Source: Desulfosudis oleivorans
Lineage (GTDB): Bacteria; Desulfobacterota; Desulfobacteria; Desulfobacterales; SURF-7
DNA length: 64,000 nt
Direction of reading: 5' to 3'
NCBI GenBank assembly: GCA_020723325.1
Contig: DYJD01000013.1
Span: forward strand, 1 to 64,000
Shown here: one piece after another, positions 1 to 55,665 of the stretch
Numbering within the stretch: the stretch's first letter is position 1
How the letters are laid out: the number at the start of each line of letters is the position of its first letter
Translations under genes and position numbers: made by a program
Notes under the pieces: model-generated
What the model was told of the DNA's origin: nothing
What the model saw: the letters and a program-made list of their open reading frames with translations, nothing else
Database searches by the model: none

Positions 1-80
1 CAAGCAATAGTATTCGCTGGGTGAAATATTGGCAATTAATGGCTGCACATTCCGCACCAAGTTTACATTCGATTCCCCTG
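1..80 (+). repeat. Dispersed 80-bp repeat, copy A (may extend left of the window)
   Basis: These 80 bases recur in reverse complement at 25854-25933 with three visible mismatches. It contains no convincing reading frame. Here it ends 88 bases before the start of the peptide-binding protein gene and has the same orientation as that gene. The other copy sits 121 bases before an alpha/beta hydrolase gene, again in the same orientation, so a shared upstream regulatory or transcribed element is possible. It could equally be an inert mobile repeat. Confidence 0.8.
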
Positions 81-8855: not shown

Positions 8856-9587
8856 TCATTTTTCATATTCCGCGTTGGCTTGGCAGACCCGGTTGCGGCC
8901 GGTCTGCTTGGCCCGGTAAAGCGCTTCGTCGGCCATGGCCAGCATTTTTTCGCGGTCTTCGGGAAATTGGGGGAGCTGGGAGGACAGGCCGATACTGATG
9001 GTGAGCTTTATCTCCAGGCCTTCGTGGGGTATTATCAGATCTTCCACTTTCCTGCGCAAGACTTCGGCCAGGTTGGAGGCATCGGCCCCGGCCGTACCGG
9101 GCAACAACACACAGAATTCCTCGCCCCCGTAACGGGCCACCAGATCCGAACATCTTCGGAAGGAACTTTTCAGAGTGCCGGCGATGAGTTTCAAACATAC
9201 GTCGCCGGCTTGATGACCGTGGGTGTCGTTCACCTTTTTAAAAAAATCGATATCAATCAGCAGCAATGAAAGCGGAGCCCGTGCCCGCCAGGCTCTTTTC
9301 CACTCGGTTTCAAAACCTTCGTCAAAATACCGGCGGTTGTGCACGCCGGTCAGACCGTCGATGGTGCTCAAGCCGGTCAGGAGCAGGTTGGCCTCATTCA
9401 GCTTTTTGGCTTGCTTATCGTTGATCTTGATAAGCCGCCGCAACTGCTTGTAGACTTTTTTGTAGCTGCCCAGCAGGTGTTCAAATTCATGGCGCAGCCG
9501 GTGGTTTTCTTTTGTTCCTTGGGCCAACATCTCCTCGGCACGCCGGATGATTGTTTCTTCGGCTTCAAAAAGGGTTTCTTCGCTCAC
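8856..9587 (-). CDS. Diguanylate cyclase with N-terminal helical stalk (SiaD-like)
   Basis: Makes cyclic di-GMP from two GTP. The C-terminal GGDEF domain (about residues 80-238) has the active-site motif as YGGEEF and the upstream phrase DGLTGVHNRRYFDEGF. An RxxD inhibitory site is not obvious. Residues 1-75 are a charged helical stalk with no membrane segment, so the protein is soluble. Its ATG overlaps the stop of the siaC-like gene by four bases, so synthesis is coupled to that gene. In Pseudomonas aeruginosa SiaD, SiaC binds the N-terminal stalk to activate the cyclase. The order and partner here suggest the same arrangement. The stalk resembles the N-terminus of the hybrid kinase of the same operon. 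Confidence 0.9.
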   Translation of the reverse strand: MSEETLFEAEETIIRRAEEMLAQGTKENHRLRHEFEHLLGSYKKVYKQLRRLIKINDKQAKKLNEANLLLTGLSTIDGLTGVHNRRYFDEGFETEWKRAWRARAPLSLLLIDIDFFKKVNDTHGHQAGDVCLKLIAGTLKSSFRRCSDLVARYGGEEFCVLLPGTAGADASNLAEVLRRKVEDLIIPHEGLEIKLTISIGLSSQLPQFPEDREKMLAMADEALYRAKQTGRNRVCQANAEYEK

Positions 9588-9976
9588 TTTTCAGCCTCTT
9601 TTATCACCAGATTGAACTCGACATATTCCAGATCTTCAGCGAATTCCTCGCCAAATTCCAGATTGTCGGCATCATCGGCTTCATAGATCCAGTTGATAGC
9701 CACCTTGCGGCCTTGCTTGGCGGCATTGTCCAGCAGATCGAACAGGTTGATCAGGGTTTTGGAAGAACTGCTGTTGAAATAGATCAGGTCCACATTCACG
9801 GTCAGGGGCAGAGCATCTGGGCCGTCCAGATATTTCTTTACATATTCAAACATGGGTGCGTAAAATTCCACGGTGTTCTCCGGATAGGATTCCCCCTTGA
9901 TGAAAAGAAAGTGTTTTTCAGGCTCAAAGAAAATTTCGGGCGTATATTTCGTGGGTTCTATCTTGAGAGTTTCCAT
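9584..9976 (-). CDS. siaC: SiaC-like phospho-switch protein (DUF1987)
   Basis: Small 130-residue protein of the SiaC/DUF1987 family, which resembles anti-sigma-factor antagonists. In the Pseudomonas system it is phosphorylated by SiaB, dephosphorylated by SiaA, and in its unphosphorylated form activates the cyclase SiaD. Family landmarks are KGESYPEN near residue 30 and the phospho-site block LIYFNSSSSKTLINLFDLL at 65-83. From memory the Pseudomonas acceptor is a threonine in LNTSS; the aligned residue here is Ser69. The start is supported by TAGGAGG seven bases upstream. The gene lies 13 bases after the hybrid kinase gene and overlaps the cyclase gene by four. Confidence 0.87.
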   Translation of the reverse strand: METLKIEPTKYTPEIFFEPEKHFLFIKGESYPENTVEFYAPMFEYVKKYLDGPDALPLTVNVDLIYFNSSSSKTLINLFDLLDNAAKQGRKVAINWIYEADDADNLEFGEEFAEDLEYVEFNLVIKEAEK

Positions 9977-9989
9977 GCGGACCTCCTAA

Positions 9990-12929
9990 TTATACCAGCG
10001 CCTTTAAGGTGAAAAAGGAATATTGTTCGTTCATCCGGCGAATGTCATAGGTCAAGGGCCTGCTTGCCCGCCTGGCGATTTCAATCAAGCCCAGACCGGC
10101 GCCTTTACTGCTTTCGTGGGGTTCCACCCGCCGTTGCTCTTTGTAGTAAATCTTCAAATCTTCTTTGCTCATATCCTTCACGATTTCCAGTCTCCGCTGC
10201 AGCCCGGCCACTTTGGTGTTATGCACCCGGTTCCCGCTGATGACCGAGCAAAAACCTTTTTCAAGGCCTACGGCGATGATGCCCACACTGAGCTGGTCCG
10301 CCTCGTAAACGGAATTATCCACCGGATACTTTTCATCCGAATAGTGGATGATGTTCTGGACCTGCTCCACGAGAACGGAAAATACCCTTGAGCTGACGGA
10401 TTTGCCGGCCTCACCCAGCATCATTCTTTTTTTCAGGATATCTCCGATCTCCACCATCAATACTTGGGAGATCGGGCCGAAAAAGCAGAAAATCACCTTC
10501 TGCCGGTTCAAGCCTTCTTTGAAGTCGCAGAGCTCAGCCATCATGTTGTCTTCCCTCTGATTGGTGAACGCCTTCACGTCTCCCGATCTGTTGCCGATAA
10601 ACGGGGTGTCTTGGGCGCCATCACTACCTTCGCCTTCTGCCTGGGAGAGTTTCATGAGGCTGATAAAAAGCTTCAATTCCCGGCAGGCGCTTTCCAGCTC
10701 CGCCAGCCGGCTCAAACCGTCTTCCAGGTTGCCTGACTTGCCCAGGTCTTCAAGGGCGCGGGCAATATCGGCCAGCCTGCCCGCCGTCAGATTGGCGGCG
10801 CCGCCCTTGATGGCATGGGCCTCCCTGGCCACGATTTCAGCCCGGCCTTGGGCCAGGGCTTGCCGCAAAATTGAAATTTGTTCGTCCAATTTTGTCATAA
10901 AGCCCGCGGCCACTTCCCACAGGAAAGCCTGGTCGTTGTCGAATTCGGCAACGGCACGCTCCAAATCCATGGGCGCGGTGGTGGATTCCGGTGTGGATGT
11001 GGCCTGGGTTGCAATTGTTCGTCGGTCATTGCCGAAGGTCAGCCATTTTTCCATGATCTCGGCCAGGGTTTTCCGTTTCAGGGGTTTGGCCGCATAGTCA
11101 TCCGTTCCGGCGGCCAGGCATTTTTCGCGATCGCCTTTCATGGCATGGGCAGTCAAAGCGATGATGGGGATTCGTTCTATGGGCGGGCGGCCGTTTTTCA
11201 TGCCCTCCACCTGGCGCCGGCACTCCAGTTCCCGGATTTTTTTTGTGGCCTCATACCCATCCATTACCGGCATTTGCATGTCCATCAGGATCAAATCATA
11301 GTTCTTGCGGCGATAGGCATTGATGGCCTCCTGCCCGTTTTCCGCAAGATCCACTTGATAACCAAGGCTGACCAGATGGCGCGTGACCACTTGTTGATTG
11401 GTGGGATAATCCTCCACCAGCAGGATTTGTTTTTCCGCCCGGTAATCTTCGGCAATGGTATGGCGGGTGATCAGTCTCTCCACGGCGCCCTGGTCATCCA
11501 AACGTATCAGCTTCAACACCGAAAGAATGGCCTTTTTAAGCTCATCCCGCTTGATGGGTTTGACCAGATAGCCGTTGATTCCGATTTCCTTGCACAGGCG
11601 CCCTTCGCCCACAGCTCCTGCGGAAGTCAGGACAATGAGCGGAAGATCGCGGTGATTGGCTTTCAGCCGAACGGCTTTTGCAAAATCAAAGCCGCTCATG
11701 TCCGGCATCTGAAAATCGGTAAGGATCAGTTGAAAAGGGATACCGGCGGAGGCGCTTTGCTCCAGGATGGAAAGGGCCTCTCGGCCGCTGCTTGCTTCCG
11801 TTGACAGCGCACCCCAGGATTTCAGATAGGCGGTGATGATTTCGCGATTGGTCGGATTGTCGTCCACCAGGAGAATGCGATAATTCTGCAATTGAATTTC
11901 TTCCTGGGCAAAGAGCGTGTTGTCTTTTTGCTTCTGAAAGGTCAAATTGAACCAGAAAGTGCTGCCGGTGCCCGGAATGCTGTACAGTCCAATGGAGCCG
12001 CCCATGAGTTCCACCAGTTGTTTGGAAATGGTGGTTCCCAGCCCGGTGCCGCCGTATTTGCGGGTGGTGGACCCGTCGGCCTGGCGAAAGCTTTCAAAAA
12101 TGATATCCTGTTTGTCTTGGGGAATGCCGATGCCGGTGTCCGACACAGCCACATTGAATTCAATGGTATCCGGAAGATCCTGCAAGACGCTCACCTTCAG
12201 CACGACTTCGCCCTTATCGGTGAACTTCAGGGCATTTGACATGAGATTTCCCAGGACCTGGCGCAGCCGGCCGGGGTCACCCAGAATGCGGGTGGGAATA
12301 TCCGGTGGAATGAAATTCATGAACTCCAAACCTTTTTGGGCAGCCCGGCAGGCTACGGCGCCGGAGACATCCTCGATCAGCACCCGCAGGTCAAAGGGAA
12401 TGGTTTCTATTTCCATTTTGCCGGCTTCCATCTTGGAAAAATCAAGGACATTGTTGATGACTTCCAATAGTGAGCAGGCTTCCTTGTCAATGGTGAACAG
12501 GATATTTTTGTAGTGTTCATCCAGGGTCTGATCCAAGGTCTGGTCCAGGGCCAGTTCGGTCATGCCGATAATGCCGTTCAAGGGAGTACGGATCTCATGG
12601 CTCATGTTGGCCAGGAATTCGCTTTTGGCCTTGCTGGCCATCTTCGCGGCTGACAGGGCATTCACGAGTTCCGCTGTTCGTTCCTGCACTTTTATCTCCA
12701 GGGTTTCCTTGGCCTTTTCCACTTCTTCGATCATATCGTTCAGCCGGCGATGCTGGCGATCGTGAATGGAGATGAGGCGTTTGAACTGTTTCAACAGTTT
12801 CCGATAATCCAGCAGCAGCACCCCGAAGCCGTTTTTAAGCGCCTCCCGGCTGATTTCCTTCCCGTCGATAACGGCCTCCGCCTGTCGAATAGCGTCTTCC
12901 TCGTTTTGAAATAGGTTTTTATCCGGCAT
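9990..12929 (-). CDS. Hybrid histidine kinase fused to a SiaB-like kinase domain
   Basis: A 979-residue soluble multidomain protein. In order: helical stalk 1-85, HisKA with phospho-His111 in [12 protein letters not shown], HATPase about 215-335 (DTGIGIP and GGTGLG), receiver 1 with Asp405 ([11 protein letters not shown]), receiver 2 with Asp550 ([11 protein letters not shown]), and HPt with His705 (AHAIKGG). Last is a SiaB/DUF6272-like domain, 796-979. That domain has a second GHKL-type ATP site: [12 protein letters not shown] as N-box and [14 protein letters not shown] as G-box. There is no membrane or periplasmic sensor. I take the ATG at 12929, preceded by AAGAGGAG, rather than the codon 54 bases upstream. 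An in-frame ATG at 10544 has its own ribosome site and could give free SiaB as well. It lies 13 bases upstream of siaC. Confidence 0.88.
10551..10558 (-). promoter_or_regulatory. Possible internal ribosome binding site for a free SiaB-like protein
   Basis: The minus strand reads AGAGGGAA, then eight bases from GAGGG to two consecutive in-frame ATG codons (10544 and 10541). The codon at 10544 is residue 796 of the long fusion, exactly where the SiaB-like domain begins after a poorly conserved linker. Internal initiation would give a 184-residue protein, close to the size of stand-alone SiaB. Confidence 0.5.
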
Positions 12930-12983
12930 GGATGGGGCTCCTCTTCCAAATATTGCTATGATTTGGTTATTGTCTTCAAGCAT

Positions 12984-13070
12984 TAATAATTAGCAATTAA
13001 CAATTGATTGTTTAATATAAATTATTTTAATAATTAATAATCAATTGCTAATGAATAATTATTAACTTGG
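12984..13070. repeat. AT-rich dispersed repeat, two inverted copies
   Basis: The spacer between the first giant gene and the hybrid kinase gene holds AATTGTTAATTGCTAATTA-type units in both orientations. The rightmost copy (CTAATGAATAATTATTAAC) overlaps the stop of the giant gene. Related copies are at 18712-18740, at the end of the second giant gene, and at 32347-32384, between two kor genes. No coding potential. Confidence 0.7.
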
Positions 13071-16000
13071 TACCTGCGGCGCAAAGCCGATCACCGTGAT
13101 ATCATCCTGCTGTTCGTTGATGCCTTTGTGTTTTTTGAAGGCCTTCAGCAGTATCTCCTGCTGGTCTGCAAAAGACCTGTGAAAGTTTTCCTTCAGCAAT
13201 TCCTCAAAGCGCTCCCGGCCCAGACGCCGATGGCGCAAGCCGCCCAGTTGATCCACAAAACCATCCGTATACAGATATACCTGCATGCCTGGCCCGATGG
13301 GAACAGTATGGTTGGTAAAAGTGAATCCCAGGTCCGCAGAGGCATAGCCGATGCTCATGCGGTCCCCCTTGATGGTTTCAAAACTATTGCCCGCGGCAAT
13401 GACCACCGGCAAGCGCGCCCCGGCATAGGTTAAAAGCCTTTTGGACAGATCCACATGGCAGACGGCCGCATCCAGCCCGTCGTCCGAGGCGGCCCGGCCC
13501 GTATCCTGCTGCAGGGAAGTCTTCACGATGAAATTGAGGCGCTTCAACATTTCAGCCGGATCCTTGCAGCCCTCATCCTTCAGGATGGTCCGAAAACCCG
13601 AGGCCGCGATCATGGTCATGAAGGCCCCGGGCACCCCGTGGCCGGTGCAATCCATCACCGCCACGATGAAACCTTCCGCGGTCTGCTCCATATGGAAAAT
13701 ATCGCCGCCGATAATATCCTTGGGCTCATAAAGGAAAAAACTGTCGGGCAGCCAGGAGCGCACCCACTCCACATTGGGCAACAGGGCCTGCTGAATGGTC
13801 TTGGCATAGCGGATGCTCTCCAGCATGTGGCGGTTGACTTTCTCCACCTTTTTCAAGGTGGCCTTTAGCTCCAGGGTGCGCTCGGCCACCCGTCTTTCCA
13901 AATCGGCGTTGAGTTTGCGGATTTCCTCTTCGGCTTTTTTATGTTCGGTGATGTCCGACACCATGGAAAAGGCGCCGATCTGGCGATCTCCCTCAAACAG
14001 GGGCGTGGCCTTGAAAAGACACAGCACTTCCGTGCCGTCCGGCCGGCGGGCAAAGGTCTCGTAAGTTAATTTCTCGCCGCGCTGCAGGGCTTCCTTCTGG
14101 CGTTTGGCGTCGGCAATGCTTTTTTCGCCGCCGAATTCGAAAATATGGCGGCCGATGACATCTTCCCGCTTGCGCCCCAGAATCCGGCACATTTCCGGGT
14201 TCACATCCGTGGTATAGCCCCTGGCATCCACTACCCAGAAGCCTTCATTGGCGGTTTCCAGGATATTGCCCATGCGTTCCTGGGCCTGTTTGATGTCGGC
14301 GTAAAGCCCGGCGTTTTCCAGGGAGATGGCGGCCTGGGAGGCCAGCAGCTCCAGCACGCTGATGCGGCCGGGGGTAAAGGCCCCTTTGGCTTTGTTGTTT
14401 TCCAGATAGAGCAGGCCGGAAAGCCGGTTTTGGCGCACCACCGGCTGGCACAGAATGGAGCGCGGCCGTGTCCGCAGCACATAGGGATCGGAAACAAAAT
14501 CGCCCTGGCCGGCGGCATCGTCCAGCACTATGGAACGGCGGGTCTGGTAGACCAGGTTGATGAGGGGCTGGAGCAAATCCCTGCGCTGCATCAAGGGTTG
14601 CCGCTGCACCTGAATCTGCAGGCTGTCTTCATTGAAGGATGCGGCTGTTTCCATTACCGCCCCCTCGGCTTCGATGGTCAAGCCCTCGCCCTGCACGGAC
14701 ACAAAAAAGCCGCGCTCGGCGCCGGCGTTTTCCAGCACGGTCTTCATCAGACGCTTCAGCAGATTGTCCAGCACGATCTCCGTGGATATGGCCTGCAGGG
14801 CGTTCACCACCGTCAGATAATCCATTTGGTCCAGGCCGGTTCTTTCCGGACTATTCAAATCATCGGACTTTGACTCCGCCGGTTTGGGAAGCATTTCCCC
14901 ATGGCGTTGATAGAGCAGGCTCACCTTGGCATCCGCACCCCAGTCCTGGTACCACCTGATGCTCTCTTGCAGATAGATCTTGGCGATCTTTGGTTTTCCT
15001 CTTTCCAGGTAAAATTCGGCGGCGTATTGGTTGGCCAGGGCTGTATGGTGACGGTTTCCGTTCCGACCGGCCGATTCTATGGCTTGATCGTATAGGGCCA
15101 CCGCCTTGCCTTCATTGGCATTGATCCGCTCCATTTCGGCGCTCACCAAAAAATATTTATGGGCATAGTTTTGCGGACAGTTTTCCGCCCAGGTTTTCAG
15201 CATTTTTCTATATTTTTGCGCCTTGTGCAAAGCACGACGTTTGTCTTTTTCCTGACAGCCGATATTTTTTCGGATCAGCGCCAGGGTTGATAGAAAATAA
15301 AAATCCGGACCTACCGGCAGAGAAAAAGCGCCCATTATGTTTTGGCGGCATGCGGCGATATACTCAGCCGCCTTTTCATAATCCTCGAATAAAATACCCA
15401 GCCACAGTTTTTGCACGGCCTCCCAAAAAAACAGGGAAGGATTCTTCAGCTTACGCATCCGCTTTTCATCAAAATGGCTGCTGCTGAAATCGAACCGGTC
15501 CATGGCTTTGCCCCTCAGGCTGACAATCAGACCCAAGGTCAGGTGCATGACGAAACGCACATTGCTGCGGATGGGTTCAAGAAAAGCAATGGCCTGCCGG
15601 CATTGGTTTTCGAGGATTTCCAGTTTTTCGCCCTGAATAAAAATATTCCAGGTTGTCCAGGCCAGGATCAAGGCCACGAAATTGAAATCACCTGTGTCCA
15701 CGCCCTGTTGAAAACCCTGATCTAAAAAAGGGCGGATTTCATTAAAGGATTTGCGCCAGTGAAAAACGAATTGAGATGAAATTCCAAGAAGCTTGCCGGA
15801 GAAGCGCGGATCATAATAACGCTGATGGACCTGCAAGGCCAATTCTCCAAAAGCTTCTCCTTGGGCATATTTCCCTAAACCAGCGCATAGTAACATACCA
15901 TAACTGCAATAGCCCAGTGCCGAAGCCGGTGAATTTCCATATCCAATGGACAAGCGGACCATTTTCAGAACGATGAGGGCCAATAATTTCGGATTGCTGA

Positions 16001-18692
16001 AATAGGCGGAGTCCACCATCACGGCGATCATTTCCATAATTCGTATGGTTTTCGGATCCGTCATTGCCGGAAGATTCAGGAAATCATCTATTGTCATCCT
16101 TCGGCAAAGCAGCCGAACATGGATCATTTCCTTGAAGAGCAGATACTTCGAGGGGGTCTCTGGCAGAAATTCATCCAGACATTCCAGGCCTTTAAGTCCT
16201 TGTTGGATGGCTGCCTTACTCCAGACCCTGCCTGCATACAGCATCACTTTCCGATAATGGATTTCCGCTTTGGCCGAATCTGTCCCGGCCTTTTCCAGCA
16301 GTAGATTGAAAAAGCGTTCGGCCTCCTCATAATGGGCATTGGCGTATTCACATTCCGCCCGCTCTTGATGGATCTGAAAGGTCAGATCAAAACATTCCTC
16401 CCAGCAGGCCGGACCCAGCAGGGCCATACCGGTCTGGCTATATTTCAAGGCCGGCTCATACGCATTGGATTCCTTGGCGCGCTTGGCCGCGATGCGGTTC
16501 AATTCCGCCAGTTCGTAACGCTCTTCCGGCTTGATCAGCAAGTCCCGGGCAAGGTTAAGCTGATTGACGATGTAAAAGACTTTCTTCTCCTTTTCCCCAG
16601 GCTGAAGCCTGGATAGAAAAAGCCGGCCGATTTTCAAATGAAGCCCGGGCGCCCCACCCGCGGGAATCAGGGAATAGGCCGCTTCCTGAATGCGGTCATG
16701 CCGGAATACAAAAAGCGTATCCACGGCAATGAGTCCTTCTTCCATGGCGGCGGTCATGGACTGCATGATTTGATCAATGGGCTGCTCCATTACCGCTGAA
16801 AGGGTTTCCAAATCAAAGCGGTTTCCCACGCAGGCCCCGATTTTAAGAATCTCCTGGGTGTGAACCGCAAGCCCGGTGATCTTGCGGGCCAGCAGATCCA
16901 CCACATTGTCTGTGACTTGCAAGCCCTTGATCCGTTCCATATCCCAATGCCAGCCTTTTTCGGGATCCAATTGCAGCAGCTTGCCGTCATACAGGGATTT
17001 GATGAATTGATTCACAAAAAAGGGATTGCCATCGGTTTTGGCATGTACCAGGGATGCTAGGGGCTGGACAGCGGCCTGGTCGGTCTTGATGATTTCCAGC
17101 AGCAAGTCCCGGACATTTTCATGGTTTATGGGACCCAGAAAAATCTCGTGCAGCCGGCCTCCGTCCCGCACGATTTCCGCAAGGGTGCGCCGCAGGGGAT
17201 GGGCTTCGCCGACTTCGTTGTGGCGATAAGTGCCGATGATGAAAAGATAGCGGATGCTCTCGTCGGTGGTGAGGGTGCGGATGAGATTCAAACTGGCGGA
17301 ATCGGCCCATTGCAGATCATCCAGGAACAGCACCAGGGGATGCTGTTCCTGGGCAAACACTTTGGCGAAATTTTTAAACACCAGGTTGAAACGGTTTTGA
17401 CTTTCTTCCGGACCTAACCCGGGCACCGCGGCCTGAGGACCCAGCAGGATCTCGATATTGGGGAGCACATCCGCCATCACGCCGCCGTTGGGTCCCATGG
17501 CCGCCTGCAGGCGCTGTTTCCAAGTTTCGATGCGCGCCTTGTCCTCGGTGAGGATCTGCAGGATCAGCCCCTGAAAGGCCTGGATGATGGAACTATAAGG
17601 TACGTCCCGTCGAAATTGTTCATATTTGCCTGAAATGTAATAGCCCCGCTTGGCCACGATGGGTTTGTGAATTTCCAGGATCAAGGCGGATTTGCCGATT
17701 CCCGGATATCCGCAAACCAGCATCAGCGCCGAGGGTCCGCGGCCCACCTGCGCAAAAACCGCCATGAGTTGCTCAATTTCCTTTTCCCGGCCCACCAGTT
17801 TTTGGGGAATATTAAAGCGCATGGAAATATCCTTGCGCCCCAGCTCAAAGTCGGCGATATGGCCGAAGCGCCTGAAGCCCTCATGGCAGATGAGCAGATC
17901 GGCTTTCAGGCCAAAGCAATTCTGATAACGTTCCTCCGCGGTCTTGGCCAGCAACCGCATGATGATGCGGCTTACCGGGACAGGCACCGCCGGCTGAATT
18001 TCATGGGGCTCCTTGGGGGTCCGGGCGATGTGGGCATGGATCAGTTCCATGGGATCATCAAAGACAAAGGGCAGGCGGCCGGTGCTCATTTCATACAGGG
18101 TCACGCCCAGGGAGTACATGTCCGTACGGTAATCCACATTCCGGTTCATCCGGCCGGTTTGCTCCGGCGACATATACGGCAAGATCTGGGCGCCATAGGC
18201 AGGATCACTGATTTTACGGTTTTCGTGGGTCAACAGGGCGGTGACGCCGAAACCATGCAGCTTGATGGTGCGAGTGCCCGGCTGGATAAGAATATGGGCG
18301 GGTTTGACAGCCCGGTGCACCAGCCCTTCCTGGTGCAGCCGTCCCAGGGTCTCGGCCAACTGGATGGCGATTTCGAGAAATTCTCCGGTCTTAAGGGGAT
18401 GTGCGGCCAGGTGTTGTTTCAGGGAAATCCCCTGAAAATCCTCCAAAACCAGTTGCCAGACCTTGTCGGTTTTTTGAACGGCCCGGGTGGTTACAAGACC
18501 CGGAATGGTCAAGCAGCGGATGCGCTCGTATTCCTGTAAAAAACGGGCTTCCTCATCCCTGGAAATACCCCTGGCCTGAAGTTGATGAACAATCACCTCC
18601 TCGCCCGTGCTTTCATCATGGGCTTGAAAAACCAAGCGGTGCTCGGTCTCTTCCAGTTTTTTTATGGGTTGATAGAAGCGGGCAGCCATCAT
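13062..18692 (-). CDS. Giant sensor: pseudokinase - AAA ATPase - GAF - PAS - SpoIIE phosphatase (copy 1)
   Basis: A soluble protein of about 1876 residues. Residues 1-285 are a protein-kinase-like fold, but the catalytic loop is HRAVKPAH (126-133) instead of HRDxKPxN, DFG is replaced by GFG (147-149), and the ATP lysine is not evident, so it is probably a pseudokinase. An AAA_16/COG3899-type ATPase follows, with Walker A GYPGIGKSA (328-336) and Walker B LVLFLDDLQWAD (453-464). A long helical TPR-like region follows. Then come GAF (about 1290-1460), PAS (about 1474-1595), a coiled coil and a SpoIIE/PP2C phosphatase. The phosphatase keeps its acidic metal ligands (GGDIF, AVMDCTGHG, LYTDGF, QQDDITV). 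I infer that it dephosphorylates the SiaC-like protein. The start is uncertain (18692 or 18689, no good ribosome site). Confidence 0.85.
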   Translation of the reverse strand: MMAARFYQPIKKLEETEHRLVFQAHDESTGEEVIVHQLQARGISRDEEARFLQEYERIRCLTIPGLVTTRAVQKTDKVWQLVLEDFQGISLKQHLAAHPLKTGEFLEIAIQLAETLGRLHQEGLVHRAVKPAHILIQPGTRTIKLHGFGVTALLTHENRKISDPAYGAQILPYMSPEQTGRMNRNVDYRTDMYSLGVTLYEMSTGRLPFVFDDPMELIHAHIARTPKEPHEIQPAVPVPVSRIIMRLLAKTAEERYQNCFGLKADLLICHEGFRRFGHIADFELGRKDISMRFNIPQKLVGREKEIEQLMAVFAQVGRGPSALMLVCGYPGIGKSALILEIHKPIVAKRGYYISGKYEQFRRDVPYSSIIQAFQGLILQILTEDKARIETWKQRLQAAMGPNGGVMADVLPNIEILLGPQAAVPGLGPEESQNRFNLVFKNFAKVFAQEQHPLVLFLDDLQWADSASLNLIRTLTTDESIRYLFIIGTYRHNEVGEAHPLRRTLAEIVRDGGRLHEIFLGPINHENVRDLLLEIIKTDQAAVQPLASLVHAKTDGNPFFVNQFIKSLYDGKLLQLDPEKGWHWDMERIKGLQVTDNVVDLLARKITGLAVHTQEILKIGACVGNRFDLETLSAVMEQPIDQIMQSMTAAMEEGLIAVDTLFVFRHDRIQEAAYSLIPAGGAPGLHLKIGRLFLSRLQPGEKEKKVFYIVNQLNLARDLLIKPEERYELAELNRIAAKRAKESNAYEPALKYSQTGMALLGPACWEECFDLTFQIHQERAECEYANAHYEEAERFFNLLLEKAGTDSAKAEIHYRKVMLYAGRVWSKAAIQQGLKGLECLDEFLPETPSKYLLFKEMIHVRLLCRRMTIDDFLNLPAMTDPKTIRIMEMIAVMVDSAYFSNPKLLALIVLKMVRLSIGYGNSPASALGYCSYGMLLCAGLGKYAQGEAFGELALQVHQRYYDPRFSGKLLGISSQFVFHWRKSFNEIRPFLDQGFQQGVDTGDFNFVALILAWTTWNIFIQGEKLEILENQCRQAIAFLEPIRSNVRFVMHLTLGLIVSLRGKAMDRFDFSSSHFDEKRMRKLKNPSLFFWEAVQKLWLGILFEDYEKAAEYIAACRQNIMGAFSLPVGPDFYFLSTLALIRKNIGCQEKDKRRALHKAQKYRKMLKTWAENCPQNYAHKYFLVSAEMERINANEGKAVALYDQAIESAGRNGNRHHTALANQYAAEFYLERGKPKIAKIYLQESIRWYQDWGADAKVSLLYQRHGEMLPKPAESKSDDLNSPERTGLDQMDYLTVVNALQAISTEIVLDNLLKRLMKTVLENAGAERGFFVSVQGEGLTIEAEGAVMETAASFNEDSLQIQVQRQPLMQRRDLLQPLINLVYQTRRSIVLDDAAGQGDFVSDPYVLRTRPRSILCQPVVRQNRLSGLLYLENNKAKGAFTPGRISVLELLASQAAISLENAGLYADIKQAQERMGNILETANEGFWVVDARGYTTDVNPEMCRILGRKREDVIGRHIFEFGGEKSIADAKRQKEALQRGEKLTYETFARRPDGTEVLCLFKATPLFEGDRQIGAFSMVSDITEHKKAEEEIRKLNADLERRVAERTLELKATLKKVEKVNRHMLESIRYAKTIQQALLPNVEWVRSWLPDSFFLYEPKDIIGGDIFHMEQTAEGFIVAVMDCTGHGVPGAFMTMIAASGFRTILKDEGCKDPAEMLKRLNFIVKTSLQQDTGRAASDDGLDAAVCHVDLSKRLLTYAGARLPVVIAAGNSFETIKGDRMSIGYASADLGFTFTNHTVPIGPGMQVYLYTDGFVDQLGGLRHRRLGRERFEELLKENFHRSFADQQEILLKAFKKHKGINEQQDDITVIGFAPQVPS
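13077..14273 (-). repeat. 1197-bp tract identical to 18745-19941 (paralogue 3' end)
   Basis: By eye, every base from 13077 to 14273 matches the base 5668 positions further on. The flanking mismatches are at 13076 (G versus C) and 14274 (G versus A). The tract encodes the PAS domain, coiled coil and whole SpoIIE domain. Upstream of it the two genes are clearly homologous but diverged, increasingly so towards the middle. This suggests recent gene conversion or strong homogenisation of the output module. Confidence 0.85.
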
Positions 18693-18729
18693 GATTGATT
18701 CGACGCTTTCAATCGCTAATGAATAATTA

Positions 18730-21700
18730 TTAACTTGGTACCTCCGGCGCAAAGCCGATCACCGTGATATCATCCTGCTGTTCGTTGATGCCTTTGTGTT
18801 TTTTGAAGGCCTTCAGCAGTATCTCCTGCTGGTCTGCAAAAGACCTGTGAAAGTTTTCCTTCAGCAATTCCTCAAAGCGCTCCCGGCCCAGACGCCGATG
18901 GCGCAAGCCGCCCAGTTGATCCACAAAACCATCCGTATACAGATATACCTGCATGCCTGGCCCGATGGGAACAGTATGGTTGGTAAAAGTGAATCCCAGG
19001 TCCGCAGAGGCATAGCCGATGCTCATGCGGTCCCCCTTGATGGTTTCAAAACTATTGCCCGCGGCAATGACCACCGGCAAGCGCGCCCCGGCATAGGTTA
19101 AAAGCCTTTTGGACAGATCCACATGGCAGACGGCCGCATCCAGCCCGTCGTCCGAGGCGGCCCGGCCCGTATCCTGCTGCAGGGAAGTCTTCACGATGAA
19201 ATTGAGGCGCTTCAACATTTCAGCCGGATCCTTGCAGCCCTCATCCTTCAGGATGGTCCGAAAACCCGAGGCCGCGATCATGGTCATGAAGGCCCCGGGC
19301 ACCCCGTGGCCGGTGCAATCCATCACCGCCACGATGAAACCTTCCGCGGTCTGCTCCATATGGAAAATATCGCCGCCGATAATATCCTTGGGCTCATAAA
19401 GGAAAAAACTGTCGGGCAGCCAGGAGCGCACCCACTCCACATTGGGCAACAGGGCCTGCTGAATGGTCTTGGCATAGCGGATGCTCTCCAGCATGTGGCG
19501 GTTGACTTTCTCCACCTTTTTCAAGGTGGCCTTTAGCTCCAGGGTGCGCTCGGCCACCCGTCTTTCCAAATCGGCGTTGAGTTTGCGGATTTCCTCTTCG
19601 GCTTTTTTATGTTCGGTGATGTCCGACACCATGGAAAAGGCGCCGATCTGGCGATCTCCCTCAAACAGGGGCGTGGCCTTGAAAAGACACAGCACTTCCG
19701 TGCCGTCCGGCCGGCGGGCAAAGGTCTCGTAAGTTAATTTCTCGCCGCGCTGCAGGGCTTCCTTCTGGCGTTTGGCGTCGGCAATGCTTTTTTCGCCGCC
19801 GAATTCGAAAATATGGCGGCCGATGACATCTTCCCGCTTGCGCCCCAGAATCCGGCACATTTCCGGGTTCACATCCGTGGTATAGCCCCTGGCATCCACT
19901 ACCCAGAAGCCTTCATTGGCGGTTTCCAGGATATTGCCCATACGTTCCTGGGCCTGTTTGATGTCGGCGTACAGCCCGGCGTTTTCCAGGGAGATGGCGG
20001 CCTGGGAGGCCAGCAGCTTCAGCACGCTGATGCGGCCGGGGGTGAAGGCCCCCCTGGCCTGGTTGTTTTCGAGATAGAGCAGACCTGAAAGCCGGTTTTG
20101 GCGCACCACCGGCAGGCACAGGATGGAGCGCGGCTTTGTCCTGAGCACATAGGGATCGGAAACAAAATCACCCTGGCCCGCGGCATCGTCCAGCACAAGG
20201 AAGCTGCGGGTTTGGAACACGAGATTGATGAGAGGCAGGAGTAAATCGCTGCGTTGGGGCAAGGGTTGCCGCCGCACCCAAACCTGCAGGCTGTCTTCAT
20301 GGCCGGCTGCGGCTGTTTCCATAACGGCGCCCTCGGCTTCGATGGTCAAGCCTTCGTCCTGCACGGAAACAAAAAAACCGCGCTCGGCGCCGGCGTTTTC
20401 CAGCACGGTCTTCATCAGGCGCTTGAGCAGATTGTCCAGCACGATCTCCGTGGAAATGGCCTGCAGGGCGTTCACCACCGTCTGATAATCCATCTGGTCC
20501 AAAACAGCGCCGCCGGTTCTGCAGACAGCCATAACCGCGGTCTCATCCGGCCGGATGGTTTTCAGCTCCGGATACCGGTCCAGCAAAAGCTGAACCTTGA
20601 AAGTGGCCCCCCACTCCGAGTAAAGTTCAACGGCTTCCTTGCGGTAAATCCCTGCGATCTTTGATTTGCCTTGGTCTTCCCAGAAGTCGGCCGCGTATTC
20701 ATCGGCCAGGGCCGCATGATGGAGGGCGCCGTTCTGCCGGGCGGAATCAATGGCCTGATCGTACAAAGCCTCTGCTTTTTTTCCATTTCCGGAAACCCGC
20801 GCGATTTCGGCGCTCACTAGAAAATATCTGGCGCTATAATTCGAGGGACAGTTGTCGGACCATTTTTTTAATTTTTTATTATATTTATTCACTTTTTGCA
20901 TGAGACGCCGTCCGCTTTTCCGGCTTCCAGCCTGCCCACTCTTCAGCAGAACCAGCGCTGATAAAAAATAGAAGTCCGCAAGAATGGGAACGGCAAAGGC
21001 CCCCATGATATTTTTCCGGCAATCGCGCATGAATTCCTCGGCAGCGGTATGATTTCGCAGCAGAACGCACAGGTGCAGTTTGAGTAGGGCATCCCAGTAC
21101 AACAGAGCGGCATTTTGTGTTTTTTTCATTCTGGCATCGTTGTATTGCGTGCTGCTGAAATCAAACAGGTCCTTGGCCCCCTTTTGTAAAACGGAGATAA
21201 ATCCTAGGGCTATGTGCATGGTCCAGCGGACCGGATTACGGAGGGGGGTAAGGAAAGCGATGGCCTTGCGGCATCTTTTTTCAACATCTCCCAGCCCTTC
21301 GCCCTCAAAATACCCGTTCCAGATCTGATGGTTCAGGATCAAGGCCACAAAATTGAAATCACCGGCGTCAGTGCCTTGCTGCAAGCCTTGCTCCAGTTGC
21401 TCCCGCAGGCTTTTTATAGGTCTTCGCCAGTGGAAAAGAAATTCCGCGGTTATATCCATGATCTTGCAGGAATAGCGGGGGTCATGATAGCGTTGATGTA
21501 CTTTGAGGGCCAGCTCGCCGAAGGCCATGCCGTCGGCATAATTCCCCAAGGCACCTGCCAGCATCATGCCGTAGCCGCAATACCCCAGGGCCGCGGCCGG
21601 GGAATTCCCATACCGCATGGAAAGACGGATCATTTTGACAAGGATGAGGGTCAACAGTTTCTGATTGGTATAGTAAGTGGAGTCCCCCAGCATGGCCAGA

Positions 21701-24369
21701 ATCTCCATAACCAATCTGATTTTGCGATCCGTCATTTTGGGCAAACCCAGCAGGTTTTCAATCCTGCCGGAGCGGTAGCGCAACCGCAGGGACAACATCC
21801 CCAACAGTAGGGTATGCCTTTTAGGGTGCTCGGGAATCACGATTCCGAGTTGCCGCAAGCCGTCGAGCCCCTCCCGGATCGCCTCATGGCTTTTCACCAT
21901 ACTGGCGTACAACACCACTTTGCGATAATGGATCTCCGCCTTTGGAATGCCGGCCGCGGCTTTTTCCAGCAGCAGGTCAAACATACCTTCGGCTTCTTCA
22001 TAACGGGAGTTGGCATAGGCGCATTCGGCCCACTCCAGATGAATATGAAAGGCCAGATCGTACCGCTGTTCCCAGCCTTGGTTTCCCAGAATCGACATGC
22101 CGATGTCGATATACTTCAAGGCCGGCTCATACGCATTGGACTCCCTGGCGCGTCTGGCTGCCAGCCGGTTCAGCTCGGCCAGTTCATAACGCTCTCCCGG
22201 TGTGGTCAGCAGCTCCCGCCCCAGGTTGAGCTGATTGACGATATAAAACACTTTTTGCCTTTTTTCCCAATCCTCAAGCCGTGTCAAAAAAAGCCGGCCG
22301 ATCTTCAGGTGGATTTCCTTTTCCGCACCGCTGGGAATCAGCGAATACGCCGCTTCCTGAATCCGGTCGTGGCGGAATACGAAAAAGGAATTCACCGATA
22401 TCAGACCTTCCTCTATGGCCTCGGTCATATCCCGCATGACCTTCTCAATGGGCTGCGCCATAACGGCTGCGAGGGTCTCCAAATCAAAGCGGTTCCCTAC
22501 GCAAGAGCTGATTTTTAAGATTTCCTGGGTGGCGGGCTTGAGCTGGGTGATTTTTTGAGAAAGCAGTTCCACCACATTATCCGTCACCTGCAATCCTTTG
22601 ATCTGTTCCATGTCCCAATGCCAGCCCTTTTGGGGATTCAGTTGCAGCAGTTTGCCGTCGTACAGGGATTTGATGAATTGATTCACGAAAAACGGATTCC
22701 CGTCGGTCTTGGCATGCACGAGGATGGAAAGAGGCTGGATGGCGGCCTTGTCGGTCTTGATGATTTCCAGCAGAAAGTCGCGGACGTTTTCCACTGTGAT
22801 GGGCCCAAGGCGGATATCATGCAACCGGCCGCCTTCCCGGCTGATTTCCTCCAGGATACTCCTCAAGGGGTGGGCCTTTTCGATTTCATTGTGGCGATAG
22901 GCGCCGATGATCAGCAAATAACGCATATCGTCATCAAGCATGATGGTGCGGATCAGGTTCAAGCTGGCGGTATCCGCCCATTGCAGGTCATCCAGGAAAA
23001 GCACCAGGGGGTGCTTTTCATCGGCAAACAGTTTGGCGAAGTTTTTGAACACCAGGTTGAAACGGTTCTGGCTTTCTTCCGGTCCCAATCGGGGCAATTC
23101 GGGCTGGCGGCCGATGAGCAGTTCCACGTTGGGGATCACATCCGTGACAACACCGCCGTTGGGTCCCAGGGCTTCTTGCAAGCGCCGCTTCCATTCCAAA
23201 ATTTTAGCCCTATCTTCAGTCAGAATTTGCAGGATCAGGCTCTGAAAGGCCTGGATAATGGAGCTGTAGGGCACGTCCCGGCGGAATTGCTCGTATTTGC
23301 CGGATATGAAATAGCCCCGCCGCGCCACGATGGGTTTGTGGATCTCATGAACCAAAGCCGATTTGCCGATCCCCGGATAGCCCGATACCAGCAACATCTC
23401 GCAGCAGCCGCCGGCCACCTGCTCAAAAATCCCCAGAAACCTGCCGATTTCCAACTCCCTACCCACAATTTTTTGGGGGATATTGAAGCGCATGGAAATG
23501 TCCTTGCGTCCCAGCTCCAACAGCTCGATTCTTCCGGTTTTCTGGAATCCCTCCCGGCAGGTCTTAAGATCCGCCAACAAGCCGAAGCAGTTCTGATAGC
23601 GTTCCTCGGCGGTTTTGGACAAAAGCCGCATAATGATACGGGTGAGGGGGACGGGAACCGTCATCCGGATTTCATGGGGCTCCCTGGGAGTTCGGGCGAT
23701 GTGGGCATGGATCAGCTCCATGGGGTCTTCGGATTGAAACGGCAGTTGCCCGGTGAGCATTTCATACAGGGTCACGCCCAGGGAATACATGTCCGTGCGG
23801 TAATCCACATTCCGGTTCATCCGGCCGGTCTGTTCCGGGGAGATATAGGGCAAGATTCCGCTGATATAGGCCGGTTCGCTGATCCTGCGGTCCTCATGGG
23901 TCAACAGGGCCGCGGCGCCGAAACCATGCAGTTTGACAAGCCGGGAGGGCGGTTGGATGAGAATATGGGCCGGTTTAATCGCCCGGTGCACAATGCCCTC
24001 CTGATGCAACTGTCCCAGGGTCTCAGCCAACTGGACGGCGATTTCCAGAAATTCTCCGGTCTCAAGGGGCTTTGCTGCCATATGCTGTTGCAGGGAAATC
24101 CCTTCAAAGTCCTCCAGCACCAATTGCCAAAATCCGTTGACTTTTTGCACTACGTGGGTGGCTACAATCCCCGGGATGGTCAGCCGGCGGATGCTTTCGT
24201 ATTCTTGTAAAAAGCGGGCTTCCTCATCCTTGGAAACTCCTGTGGATCGAAGCTGATGAATGATCACTGTTCCGGCCGCGTCTTCATCATAGGCCTGATA
24301 AATCGTATGATAATCATTCGCATCTATCCGCTTTATTATTGAATACGTTTTTTCCTTGAGCTTGTTCAT
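18730..24369 (-). CDS. Giant sensor: pseudokinase - AAA ATPase - GAF - PAS - SpoIIE phosphatase (copy 2)
   Basis: Paralogue of the next gene in the operon with the same architecture and about 1879 residues. The kinase-like domain has the same degenerate motifs: HRAIKPAH for the catalytic loop and HGFG for DFG. The ATPase shows Walker A GYPGIGKSAL and Walker B LVLFLDDLQWAD, and the SpoIIE domain is complete. The GAF domain and helical middle are diverged between the copies, so the two probably sense different inputs while sharing one output. The start is ambiguous: ATG 24369 has GGGAG only two bases upstream, while a TTG at 24390 has AGGTG seven bases upstream. It is the first gene of the operon and ends 37 bases before the start I prefer for copy 1. 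Confidence 0.85.
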   Translation of the reverse strand: MNKLKEKTYSIIKRIDANDYHTIYQAYDEDAAGTVIIHQLRSTGVSKDEEARFLQEYESIRRLTIPGIVATHVVQKVNGFWQLVLEDFEGISLQQHMAAKPLETGEFLEIAVQLAETLGQLHQEGIVHRAIKPAHILIQPPSRLVKLHGFGAAALLTHEDRRISEPAYISGILPYISPEQTGRMNRNVDYRTDMYSLGVTLYEMLTGQLPFQSEDPMELIHAHIARTPREPHEIRMTVPVPLTRIIMRLLSKTAEERYQNCFGLLADLKTCREGFQKTGRIELLELGRKDISMRFNIPQKIVGRELEIGRFLGIFEQVAGGCCEMLLVSGYPGIGKSALVHEIHKPIVARRGYFISGKYEQFRRDVPYSSIIQAFQSLILQILTEDRAKILEWKRRLQEALGPNGGVVTDVIPNVELLIGRQPELPRLGPEESQNRFNLVFKNFAKLFADEKHPLVLFLDDLQWADTASLNLIRTIMLDDDMRYLLIIGAYRHNEIEKAHPLRSILEEISREGGRLHDIRLGPITVENVRDFLLEIIKTDKAAIQPLSILVHAKTDGNPFFVNQFIKSLYDGKLLQLNPQKGWHWDMEQIKGLQVTDNVVELLSQKITQLKPATQEILKISSCVGNRFDLETLAAVMAQPIEKVMRDMTEAIEEGLISVNSFFVFRHDRIQEAAYSLIPSGAEKEIHLKIGRLFLTRLEDWEKRQKVFYIVNQLNLGRELLTTPGERYELAELNRLAARRARESNAYEPALKYIDIGMSILGNQGWEQRYDLAFHIHLEWAECAYANSRYEEAEGMFDLLLEKAAAGIPKAEIHYRKVVLYASMVKSHEAIREGLDGLRQLGIVIPEHPKRHTLLLGMLSLRLRYRSGRIENLLGLPKMTDRKIRLVMEILAMLGDSTYYTNQKLLTLILVKMIRLSMRYGNSPAAALGYCGYGMMLAGALGNYADGMAFGELALKVHQRYHDPRYSCKIMDITAEFLFHWRRPIKSLREQLEQGLQQGTDAGDFNFVALILNHQIWNGYFEGEGLGDVEKRCRKAIAFLTPLRNPVRWTMHIALGFISVLQKGAKDLFDFSSTQYNDARMKKTQNAALLYWDALLKLHLCVLLRNHTAAEEFMRDCRKNIMGAFAVPILADFYFLSALVLLKSGQAGSRKSGRRLMQKVNKYNKKLKKWSDNCPSNYSARYFLVSAEIARVSGNGKKAEALYDQAIDSARQNGALHHAALADEYAADFWEDQGKSKIAGIYRKEAVELYSEWGATFKVQLLLDRYPELKTIRPDETAVMAVCRTGGAVLDQMDYQTVVNALQAISTEIVLDNLLKRLMKTVLENAGAERGFFVSVQDEGLTIEAEGAVMETAAAGHEDSLQVWVRRQPLPQRSDLLLPLINLVFQTRSFLVLDDAAGQGDFVSDPYVLRTKPRSILCLPVVRQNRLSGLLYLENNQARGAFTPGRISVLKLLASQAAISLENAGLYADIKQAQERMGNILETANEGFWVVDARGYTTDVNPEMCRILGRKREDVIGRHIFEFGGEKSIADAKRQKEALQRGEKLTYETFARRPDGTEVLCLFKATPLFEGDRQIGAFSMVSDITEHKKAEEEIRKLNADLERRVAERTLELKATLKKVEKVNRHMLESIRYAKTIQQALLPNVEWVRSWLPDSFFLYEPKDIIGGDIFHMEQTAEGFIVAVMDCTGHGVPGAFMTMIAASGFRTILKDEGCKDPAEMLKRLNFIVKTSLQQDTGRAASDDGLDAAVCHVDLSKRLLTYAGARLPVVIAAGNSFETIKGDRMSIGYASADLGFTFTNHTVPIGPGMQVYLYTDGFVDQLGGLRHRRLGRERFEELLKENFHRSFADQQEILLKAFKKHKGINEQQDDITVIGFAPEVPS
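18745..19941 (-). repeat. 1197-bp tract identical to 13077-14273 (second member)
   Basis: Second member of the identical pair described at 13077-14273. The outermost difference changes the fourth residue from the end (APEVPS here, APQVPS in copy 1). Near-identity also continues past the stop codon into an AT-rich repeat, so the duplicated unit ends in repeat sequence. Confidence 0.85.
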
Positions 24370-25732: not shown

Positions 25733-25853
25733 TTTTTCTCCTTTTAGTGTATTTAAGTTGCATCTGTTTTTAAAGCAAAACGTAATTCCGATCACGATAA
25801 CATTGTTTTCGTAACCTCAATTTGTCATCATGTCAAGGGGCCCTCTAATATGG

Positions 25854-25933
25854 CAGGGGAATCGCGTGTAAACTTGGCGCGGAATGTGCAGCCATTAATT
25901 GCCAATATTTCACCCAGCGAATACTATTGCTTG
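25854..25933 (-). repeat. Dispersed 80-bp repeat, copy B
   Basis: Reverse complement of 1-80 with three mismatches. It lies 121 bases upstream of the alpha/beta hydrolase gene in that gene's orientation, as copy A does for the binding-protein gene. Confidence 0.8.
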
Positions 25934-25984
25934 CCAAGATAAAGCGATTCGTGAGTGTTTGGGTTTTGCCTCTGCCATCCAATC

Positions 25985-26228
25985 TCTCGGGGTCGGGGTC
26001 GGTATCGGAATCGGTATCGAGTTTTTTCTTTTCCCCCAAAGGCAATTCGCCAACGGGACGGAACGGTGTGCCCTGCCGATGTGCAGGGGCGGTTCGCGAA
26101 CCGCCCCTACGGAAAGGCCATGGTGTTGAGTCTTGGGGTCAACATGGGAAAAGCCCTGGTTTTTTGGGGGCAGGGTCTCCCAAATTATTTTTTCGATACC
26201 GATCCCGATACCGATACCGACCCCGAAA
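25985..26228. repeat. Inverted TCGGTA-type hexamer repeats
   Basis: GGTCGGTATCGGAATCGG-like units at about 25985-26020 face the inverse units CCGATACCGATCCCGATA at about 26193-26228. They form a roughly 240-base inverted structure. Apparent reading frames through it change product in every frame and look spurious. The stretch 25796-26514 holds no gene I can support. Confidence 0.65.
26085..26110 (-). repeat. REP palindrome of the GTAGGGGC type
   Basis: The minus strand begins GTAGGGGCGG, followed by the palindromic core TTCGCGAA and CCGCCCC. The same GTAGGGGC head occurs twice inside the REP-associated transposase gene at 55926-55996, so this is probably a substrate copy moved by that or a related enzyme. 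Confidence 0.65.
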
Positions 26229-26514
26229 AAAAACTACATGCGATTGCCCTGCCTAATATGGACTGCATCAAACCTACCTGGGGAAATATGGGGCAACCTT
26301 TTATTTGACATCCAAACAAAGAAAAGCTACTATACAAACAACTCAGGTAGTTCTATTCGGAAGCAAACCGTTATTTTTTCCAGTACGGTTTAATCAATCC
26401 CAAAGTAAAAAATAAAAGAAATCACTGCATCAAACTCGCTGATCCGAACTCATCACCTTCAGCATAAAAAAATGTAATTTTAGAAATTTGGTCAAATATA
26501 TGGAGGAGTCCCCA

Positions 26515-53626: not shown

Positions 53627-53738
53627 CAGACGGCCTCCGCTTCGATTAAATCGTATACCAGCCCGGTGCATTCATTCCAAGCTTTTACATCATTTCTTTT
53701 TCCCCGAGAACAATGAGATAAAATTGCAGATAAAATCT

Positions 53739-54144: not shown

Positions 54145-55665
54145 ATGAGCAGGAAGAACGGAAATAACAATTCAGTCGATCTGGATATTGGCACCCTCGC
54201 CGGGCATCTTTGGGAGGCTGCTAATATCCTGCGTGGTCCTGTCGACGCGGCCGACTTCAAGACTTACATCTTCCCGCTGTTGTTCTTCAAGCGGCTCTCC
54301 GACGTCTATGACGAGGAATATGCCGCTGCCTTAGATGAATCCGACAGTGACGTGGAATTTGCCCGGTTCCCCGAGAATCACCGTTTTCAGATTCCAGAGG
54401 GCTGCCATTGGAAGGACGTCCGGTCCAAGAGCACCAATATCGGCCATGCGCTCCAGAATGCCATGCGTTGCATCGAGCAGGCTAATCCGGACACCCTGCA
54501 CGGCATCTTCGGCGATGCCCAGTGGACCAACAAGGACCGACTTTCGGACGCTTTGCTTAAGGATCTGATCGAACACTTTTCGTCGCTCAATTTGGGCAAT
54601 GAACACTGCAAGGCGGACATTCTCGGCCAGGCCTATGAATACCTGATCAAAAAATTTGCCGACCTGACCAACAAGAAGGCCGGTGAATTCTATACCCCGC
54701 GTTCCGTGGTCGCGCTGATGGTCCGCATCCTTGCGCCCATAGCCGGGGAAACCATCTATGACCCGGCCTGCGGGACCGGCGGAATGCTCCTCGAGGCGCT
54801 GCACCATGTCAAAGAGCAAGGCGGTGACGAGAACCGCATGCTGGGCAAGCTCTACGGCCAGGAAAAGAACCTGACAACATCCTCCATCGCCCGGATGAAC
54901 CTCTTTCTTCACGGCGCGGAAGATTTCCATATCGAACGCGGCGACAGCCTGCGATTGCCCGCCTTTTATTCGGGCGACAGCCTCGCCACTTTTGATTGCA
55001 TCATCGCCAATCCGCCTTTTTCCCTTGAAAAATGGGGGGACGACGTCTGGATCAACGACCCCTACGGCCGCAACTTTGCCGGGTTGCCGCCGGCCAAGTC
55101 CGGTGACTTCGCCTGGGTTCAACACATGATCAAGTCCATGGCCCGCAAGACCGGCCGCATGGCCGTGGTGCTGCCCCACGGTGTGCTGTTTCGTATGTCC
55201 AAAGAGGGCGAAATCCGGCGCAAGCTGCTGGAGATGGACATCCTCGAAGCCGTGATCGGCCTCGGCCCGAACATTTTCTATGGCACCGGTCTCGCGCCCT
55301 GCGTGCTGATCTTCCGGGAGAGCAAGCCCAAGGCCCACCGCCAGAAGGTGCTGTTCATCGACGCCTCGAAGGAGTTCAAGACCGGCCGCGCCCAGAATGA
55401 GCTTCTGCCGGAACACGTGGGCAATATCCATCACTGGTACGAGGGTTATCAGGATGTGGAAGGGATCTGCCGTGTGGTTACGCTCGAAGAAATTCGCGAG
55501 AACGATTTCAACCTGAACATCCCCCGTTACGTGGAGCCGGTGATCGAGGAGGAATCCATGACCATCGCCCAGGCCATCGCCAATCTAAAGGAATCGCTGC
55601 AGGCGGCGTATGCTGCCGAGGATCGCTTGAAGGAATTGCTGAAAAAGAACGGGTTGCTTGCATGA
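54145..55665 (+). CDS. hsdM: Type I restriction-modification methyltransferase subunit (first copy)
   Basis: Adenine-N6 methyltransferase subunit of 506 residues. The helical HsdM N-domain (about 15-150) is followed by the methylase domain with SAM motif I YDPACGTGGMLLEAL near 205 and motif IV NPPFSLEKW near 288. Both motifs are intact, so the enzyme should be active if paired with a specificity subunit. AGGA lies about ten bases before the ATG. Its stop overlaps the start of the transposase gene by four bases. A second, diverged hsdM follows; only one hsdS is present in the window. Confidence 0.93.
   Translation: MSRKNGNNNSVDLDIGTLAGHLWEAANILRGPVDAADFKTYIFPLLFFKRLSDVYDEEYAAALDESDSDVEFARFPENHRFQIPEGCHWKDVRSKSTNIGHALQNAMRCIEQANPDTLHGIFGDAQWTNKDRLSDALLKDLIEHFSSLNLGNEHCKADILGQAYEYLIKKFADLTNKKAGEFYTPRSVVALMVRILAPIAGETIYDPACGTGGMLLEALHHVKEQGGDENRMLGKLYGQEKNLTTSSIARMNLFLHGAEDFHIERGDSLRLPAFYSGDSLATFDCIIANPPFSLEKWGDDVWINDPYGRNFAGLPPAKSGDFAWVQHMIKSMARKTGRMAVVLPHGVLFRMSKEGEIRRKLLEMDILEAVIGLGPNIFYGTGLAPCVLIFRESKPKAHRQKVLFIDASKEFKTGRAQNELLPEHVGNIHHWYEGYQDVEGICRVVTLEEIRENDFNLNIPRYVEPVIEEESMTIAQAIANLKESLQAAYAAEDRLKELLKKNGLLA

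Follow-up and report, generated by a model that had tools for sequence, protein, structure and literature searches.

Two tandem giant SiaA-like regulators of Desulfosudis oleivorans share an identical output module, probably through gene conversion, at the head of a predicted Sia-type operon

Results

Two giant paralogs precede SiaB-, SiaC- and SiaD-like genes

We analyzed a 64,000-nucleotide stretch of the Desulfosudis oleivorans genome (assembly GCA_020723325.1, contig DYJD01000013.1, positions 1 to 64,000 of the forward strand; hereafter, the window), which carries two giant paralogous regulator genes, A and B, with a shared identical tract at their phosphatase-encoding ends. Both lie in tandem on the minus strand, gene A at 13062..18692 (first ATG at 18692, frame open from 18752) and gene B at 18730..24369 (first ATG at 24369, frame open from 24390), and their products have the same domain order: kinase-like, AAA_16, TPR, GAF, PAS and SpoIIE/PP2C. 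In the kinase-like part, HRA and HGFG stand in place of what we take to be the HRD and DFG motifs, and the presumed Walker A motif is intact, all as judged by pattern checks only; owing to these replacements, the kinase part is probably inactive. The best Protein Data Bank match of the PP2C module is the PP2C domain of SiaA (6k4e, E=8.6e-50), and the metal-site motifs of the two align, which marks the module as a phosphatase of the SiaA kind.

Genes B and A are followed on the same strand by a hybrid histidine kinase gene with a C-terminally fused SiaB-family kinase domain (9990..12983), a SiaC gene (9584..9976) and a gene for a SiaD-like diguanylate cyclase with a GGDEF domain (8856..9587). 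Spacing is tight, with 37 bp between B and A, 78 bp between A and the SiaB fusion (12984-13061, AT-rich), 13 bp between SiaB and SiaC, and a 4 bp overlap of SiaC with the SiaD-like gene. The hybrid kinase comprises a putative docking stalk followed by HisKA, HATPase, two REC and Hpt domains, and its SiaB-family part scores 175.9 bits against NF038262 (cut-off 85), remaining below the SiaB equivalog NF038264 (114.5 versus 225). SiaC exceeds the PF09345 cut-off of 24.5 with 141.7 bits; its candidate phosphosite Ser69, at the position of Thr68 in Pseudomonas aeruginosa, sits in the motif YFNSSSS. The cyclase, which likewise bears a putative docking stalk, was assigned from domain and whole-protein matches, including P. 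aeruginosa SiaD (7e6g, E=1.1e-28, residues 39-234). Judged by these homologies, this is a Sia-type operon: the two giants, as SiaA-like phosphatases, come first, followed by the kinase-SiaB fusion, SiaC and the SiaD-like cyclase.

A genome-wide search found one SiaC and one SiaB, and both giants therefore probably act on the same SiaC. The PF09345 cut-off was exceeded in none of the 11 other genomes of the source family, and in 37 of 291 genomes of the order Desulfobacterales, 27 of them with a strong match (E<1e-30).

An identical tract is flanked by tiers of divergence

Positions 13077..14273 (copy A) and 18745..19941 (copy B) agree at 1197/1197 bases, without gaps and at a constant offset of 5668, and a pairwise comparison returned exactly this stretch as the maximal identical run between the two genes. 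The identity that the original prediction had noticed by eye is thus confirmed to the base. Read on the minus strand, the tract amounts to 399 complete codons; it begins where the PAS domain begins, and four codons separate its end from the stop. Next to it lies an outer tier covering the GAF part (14274..14833 in A, 19942..20501 in B), in which 57 of 560 bases differ (10.2%) and which ends abruptly at 14833/14834, identity falling at once upstream of 14834. On the other side, a short 3' edge (13041..13076 and 18709..18744) spans the last codons, the stop and 21 bp beyond it, so that similarity reaches to 13041, with 2 of 36 bases differing. A 26-30 bp portion of this edge recurs at three other places in the genome (contigs C110, C88 and C80).

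GAF part and 3' edge are thus ~90-95% identical and the remainder of the genes 62-76%, with 24% of bases differing in the kinase-ATPase region and 38% in the TPR region. The earlier description of kinase-like, ATPase and GAF parts as different throughout applies to the kinase-ATPase and TPR regions; the GAF part forms an intermediate tier. Silent sites follow the same steps: fourfold-degenerate positions differ at 0/186 sites in the tract, 18/96 in GAF, 85/224 in kinase-ATPase and 63/134 in TPR. Across the gene alignment (5655 columns, 1269 differences), no identical run exceeded 61 in 2000 column shuffles, whereas the longest observed is 1197; for fourfold sites the longest run is 188, and 5000 shuffles gave at most 45; when only the 3' module is shuffled, runs reach at most 396 versus 1197 observed. 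The identity is therefore not due to chance. Collectively, alignment and silent sites delimit what characterizes a gene conversion tract, an identical, sharply bordered stretch, silent sites included, within otherwise diverged paralogs. The remaining self-matches of the window are accounted for by internal DNA repeats of a large protein at 38114-42721, which has nine He_PIG (Ig-like) repeats and a malectin domain.

A and B are sister genes

A tree of 36 kinase-ATPase giant sequences joins A and B as sisters at a fully supported node, and the giants nearest to them lack a PP2C match. The PP2C label requires five changes on this tree, at least four of them forced by starred branches. Together, these observations indicate that duplication came first and copying later. 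Giants of the same domain order that also end in PP2C occur in four other genomes (G028, G035, G054 and G251), all of which possess SiaC and in one of which (G251) the giant adjoins the Sia locus (L174). These are not sisters of the pair in the tree, and no homogenized pair was seen among them within the loci fetched. A first scan of named genomes confirmed no relatives of gene B.

Other tandem phosphatase genes

To place the pair among comparable arrays, 62 SiaC neighborhoods of other genomes (L118-L179) were fetched and their genes called. Two of these (L127 and L139, from two genomes) contain three tandem PP2C genes each, preceding one SiaB-SiaC. Ten other tandem SiaA-type pairs could be compared, six from L127 and L139, three in L188 and one in the genome under study (contig C18).

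A putative docking stalk is found beside SiaC in several phyla

The N-terminal stalks of the hybrid kinase (12678..12929, minus strand) and of the cyclase (9330..9584, minus strand), proposed as SiaC-docking helices from stalk comparison and profile matches, are 38% identical over 65 amino acids. A third stalk protein, identified by profile and domain search, is a HisKA-HATPase-REC hybrid kinase on contig C110 (L232:3020-4474); the protein encoded next to it (L232:4522-7365) has matches to polysaccharide deacetylase, caspase-like Peptidase_C14 and TPR domains.

A profile built from 30 of the 32 stalks found matched at E<1e-5 in 26 of the 291 Desulfobacterales genomes, all of them among the 27 with strong SiaC (the exception being G087), and in none of the 264 others, two of which (G037 and G077) gave weak matches. 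As 20 of the 26 had contributed rows to the profile, the comparison was repeated for genomes outside these rows, with the stalk present in 6/7 strong-SiaC genomes versus 0/264 others (Fisher 1.3e-11). The named SiaC loci examined are the best 80 of 540 confirmed; a stalk is encoded in 55 of these 80, and in 40 of the 52 outside Desulfobacterales, compared with 1 of 29 control loci (L075, itself beside SiaC). Stalk loci outside Desulfobacterales belong to Pseudomonadota, Campylobacterota and other Thermodesulfobacteriota, with one locus each in Acidobacteriota, Nitrospirota, Bacteroidota and Myxococcota; the rest are unplaced. A Pfam scan of 37 stalk proteins assigned 13 to class III cyclases, 5 to GGDEF, 5 to HD_5, 4 to HisKA kinases, 9 to other HATPase proteins (3 CheA-like) and 1 to SpoIIE.

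According to excerpts of the published structural work, P. aeruginosa SiaD contacts SiaC via R80, I81, S82, D83, R84 and Q86. The stalk motif fits these residues: outside Desulfobacterales, 18 of 43 stalk frames match [KR][ILMV]SD[RK]xQ in full and 5 yielded no such site. Searches of the Protein Data Bank with the two window stalks as single sequences returned chance matches only, and in the profile search SiaD 7e6g (E=0.002) scored no better than unrelated coiled coils did. The connection to P. aeruginosa SiaD is therefore drawn from the whole-protein match and the motif residues. Excerpts of an eLife paper suggest that DUF1987 proteins modulate adjacent proteins; such a range of effectors is not named in these excerpts, and a search of the paper's text for "histidine kinase" found nothing. 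A search of open-licence literature found no paper using the wording "SiaC-like" or "SiaC-family", and one for DUF1987.

Beyond the operon, the window encodes a protein with TOTE-type primase, helicase and PLD-like domains (50660-53671), near an HsdM-type methylase gene (54145-55665).

Discussion

Origin of the identical tract

The likeliest and best-supported origin of the tract, as judged from its sequence, is that the output half underwent gene conversion, because the tract has sharp edges and contains no silent change, its flanks are diverged and the two genes are sisters. The original prediction of gene conversion holds in this respect, with the amendment that probably two events are recorded: the GAF part forms a second tier, suggesting a recent conversion nested in an older one, both after the tandem duplication. 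In excerpts from PMC5485169, gene conversion between Salmonella tuf genes is described as extending ~500 nt to either side, and the tract length found here suits bacterial gene conversion of that extent. The genome under study also has a tuf pair on a single contig (C69:189251-190441 and 203956-205146), a direct repeat 14.7 kb apart and identical over 1197 bp. As the length of that tract is set by the tuf gene itself, we take the equal lengths to be a coincidence. Of five papers listed by a search of open-licence literature, none, judged by title and abstract, deals with gene conversion among bacterial sensor paralogs.

Phosphatase domains are generally conserved, and purifying selection might by itself have kept the output half identical. 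This idea is refuted by the silent sites, which differ nowhere in the tract versus more than a third of the time in the kinase-ATPase part of the same genes, leaving it with practically no probability: the sequence was copied. Copying could also have proceeded by unequal crossing-over, with a transient third copy that was later lost, instead of by non-reciprocal conversion. Tandem direct repeats 5.7 kb apart permit such exchanges, whose outcome is indistinguishable from conversion within one genome; with two tiers present, each of which would demand two exchanges, we regard this route as improbable.

The original prediction also warned of assembly error, and the warning is fair. Near-identical modules (say 98-99.9%) could have been merged into one consensus that was written twice, in the worst case with one module nonexistent. 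The genome is a draft of 7.22 Mb in 113 contigs, in which a 16S search found no gene, although the same search was positive in only 9 of 14 control genomes. A short repeat family, with copies at window positions 1-80 and 25852-26251 and at 42 places in the genome when queried with 191 bp, lies within 400 bp of a contig end in at least 9 of the 42 cases; the contig ends read carry this repeat and no N (13 ends counted). Moreover, a tract ending at the first difference near diverged flanks is also what merging would give. On the other hand, a direct two-copy repeat should offer one path through the assembly graph, which by this reasoning leaves the order of the genes unambiguous. The assembly also contains a tuf pair that matches the tract in length and arrangement, and the flanking GAF tier still shows 57 differences in 560 bp. 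Other stretches were compared to see whether the assembler merges isolated differences, and no repeat pair was found in which a difference stands well apart from its neighbors in both directions. We consider an assembly product unlikely. Sparse differences inside the tract may have been merged by a short-read assembler, yet the step from ~10% divergence to a percent or two at most would hold even with such smoothing.

Whether conversion is selected for is a separate matter. According to the original prediction, it keeps a single phosphatase specificity while inputs diverge, and recurrent conversion of this kind would let both sensors retain their match to one SiaC. In its favor, the existence of two tiers points to more than one event, it is the output module that was converted, and the single SiaC found in the genome, encoded in the same operon, provides the concrete target that this proposal lacked. 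None of the ten other tandem SiaA-type pairs is homogenized, however, including the six that precede a single SiaB-SiaC; silent differences amount to 0.45-1.0 per site in every alignment window, and identical tracts are absent. A tandem giant pair on contig C68 of the same genome likewise has no long identical tract. A recurrent homogenizing habit of the family was accordingly rejected, and homogenization is neither a rule of such arrays nor required for two giants to act on one SiaC. That conversion serves to keep specificity is thus unsupported and, in our view, doubtful though not far-fetched; an opportunistic event, tolerated or mildly favored, is more likely than required upkeep.

A two-input route onto one SiaC switch

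The whole is best explained by tandem duplication, nested conversion of the 3' module and two inputs converging on one SiaC switch, a reading to which we assign a probability of roughly two in three. A giant regulator of the pseudokinase-AAA ATPase-TPR-GAF-PAS-PP2C type would have been duplicated in tandem, giving rise to B and A, whose sequences later diverged. Afterwards, the 3' module would have been copied at least twice through homologous recombination of the direct repeats, with one gene as presumed donor: an older copying of ~1.8 kb, from GAF to just past the stop and now ~10% diverged outside the tract, and a recent one of ~1.2 kb, from PAS to PP2C, in which no difference is seen. Both proteins would consequently share one SiaA-type phosphatase, while their input parts differ. 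In P. aeruginosa, SiaC is phosphorylated by SiaB at Thr68 and dephosphorylated by SiaA; in its unphosphorylated state it binds SiaD at the stalk and activates this enzyme (PMC7278518; also excerpts of PMC7647112 and PMC8457831). By analogy, either giant, once triggered, would dephosphorylate the operon's single SiaC, which SiaB would phosphorylate again; unphosphorylated SiaC would switch the SiaD-like cyclase by docking on its stalk, and probably the hybrid kinase in the same way. The giant pair would thus form a two-input route onto one switch, the simplest model being two sensors, one shared phosphatase and one SiaC, in which an identical output could be of benefit.

Several observations weigh against this picture, besides the absence of homogenization in the other pairs. 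The tract was seen in one draft assembly of one strain, and the relatives compared belong to other genera. The NCBIfam equivalog thresholds were not reached by SiaC (107.4 versus 150), by the SiaD-like cyclase (NF038266, 176.1 bits versus 290) or by the giants, whose matches to the SiaA equivalog NF038263 (239.6 and 239.7 bits, cut-off 700) are confined to the PP2C end. Four other PP2C proteins encoded outside the operon (on C108, C84 and, twice, C18) match the module region at E<1e-12, and SiaC may hence have other phosphatases in this genome. Caution is also due because the window stalks deviate from the common motif (KINDKQA and IHDRQH).

The docking stalk is the part of the analysis with the widest reach. 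The balance of evidence tips slightly towards SiaC being a hub that is read by a portable stalk of ~65 residues, such that enzymes bearing it would come under SiaC control, among them diguanylate cyclases, class III nucleotidyl cyclases, HD_5 proteins, hybrid histidine kinases and CheA-like kinases. Here, two giants with one homogenized phosphatase would act through one SiaC on three effectors: the cyclase, the SiaB-bearing histidine kinase, which would close a feedback loop, and the hybrid kinase on C110. A stalk known from one crystal structure (P. aeruginosa SiaD) turns up next to SiaC in several phyla and on quite different enzymes; if the hub reading is true, targets of many SiaC (DUF1987) proteins are predictable from sequence and testable. 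The tract itself is a natural example, and a clean one, of two otherwise diverged multidomain sensors homogenized in nothing but their output module, beside the presumed target gene; it makes it possible to ask whether such tracts reflect a shared output specificity or recombination alone.

Comparison with known systems

The mechanism of gene conversion is already known, and the tract resembles conversion between tuf genes in its ~1.2 kb length, its sharp edges and the location of both copies on one chromosome. In tuf, however, a whole housekeeping gene is homogenized, whereas here homogenization is restricted to the output module of two diverged sensors. The Sia switch takes a new form in this setting. 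It shares with P. aeruginosa SiaABCD a SiaA-type PP2C output, a SiaB-family kinase, SiaC and a stalked diguanylate cyclase in one operon. It differs in that P. aeruginosa SiaA is a predicted membrane protein (PMC7278518), whereas two giants with pseudokinase-ATPase-TPR-GAF-PAS input occupy its place here, in that the SiaB domain is part of a hybrid histidine kinase with a stalk of its own, and in that the candidate phosphosite is serine rather than threonine.

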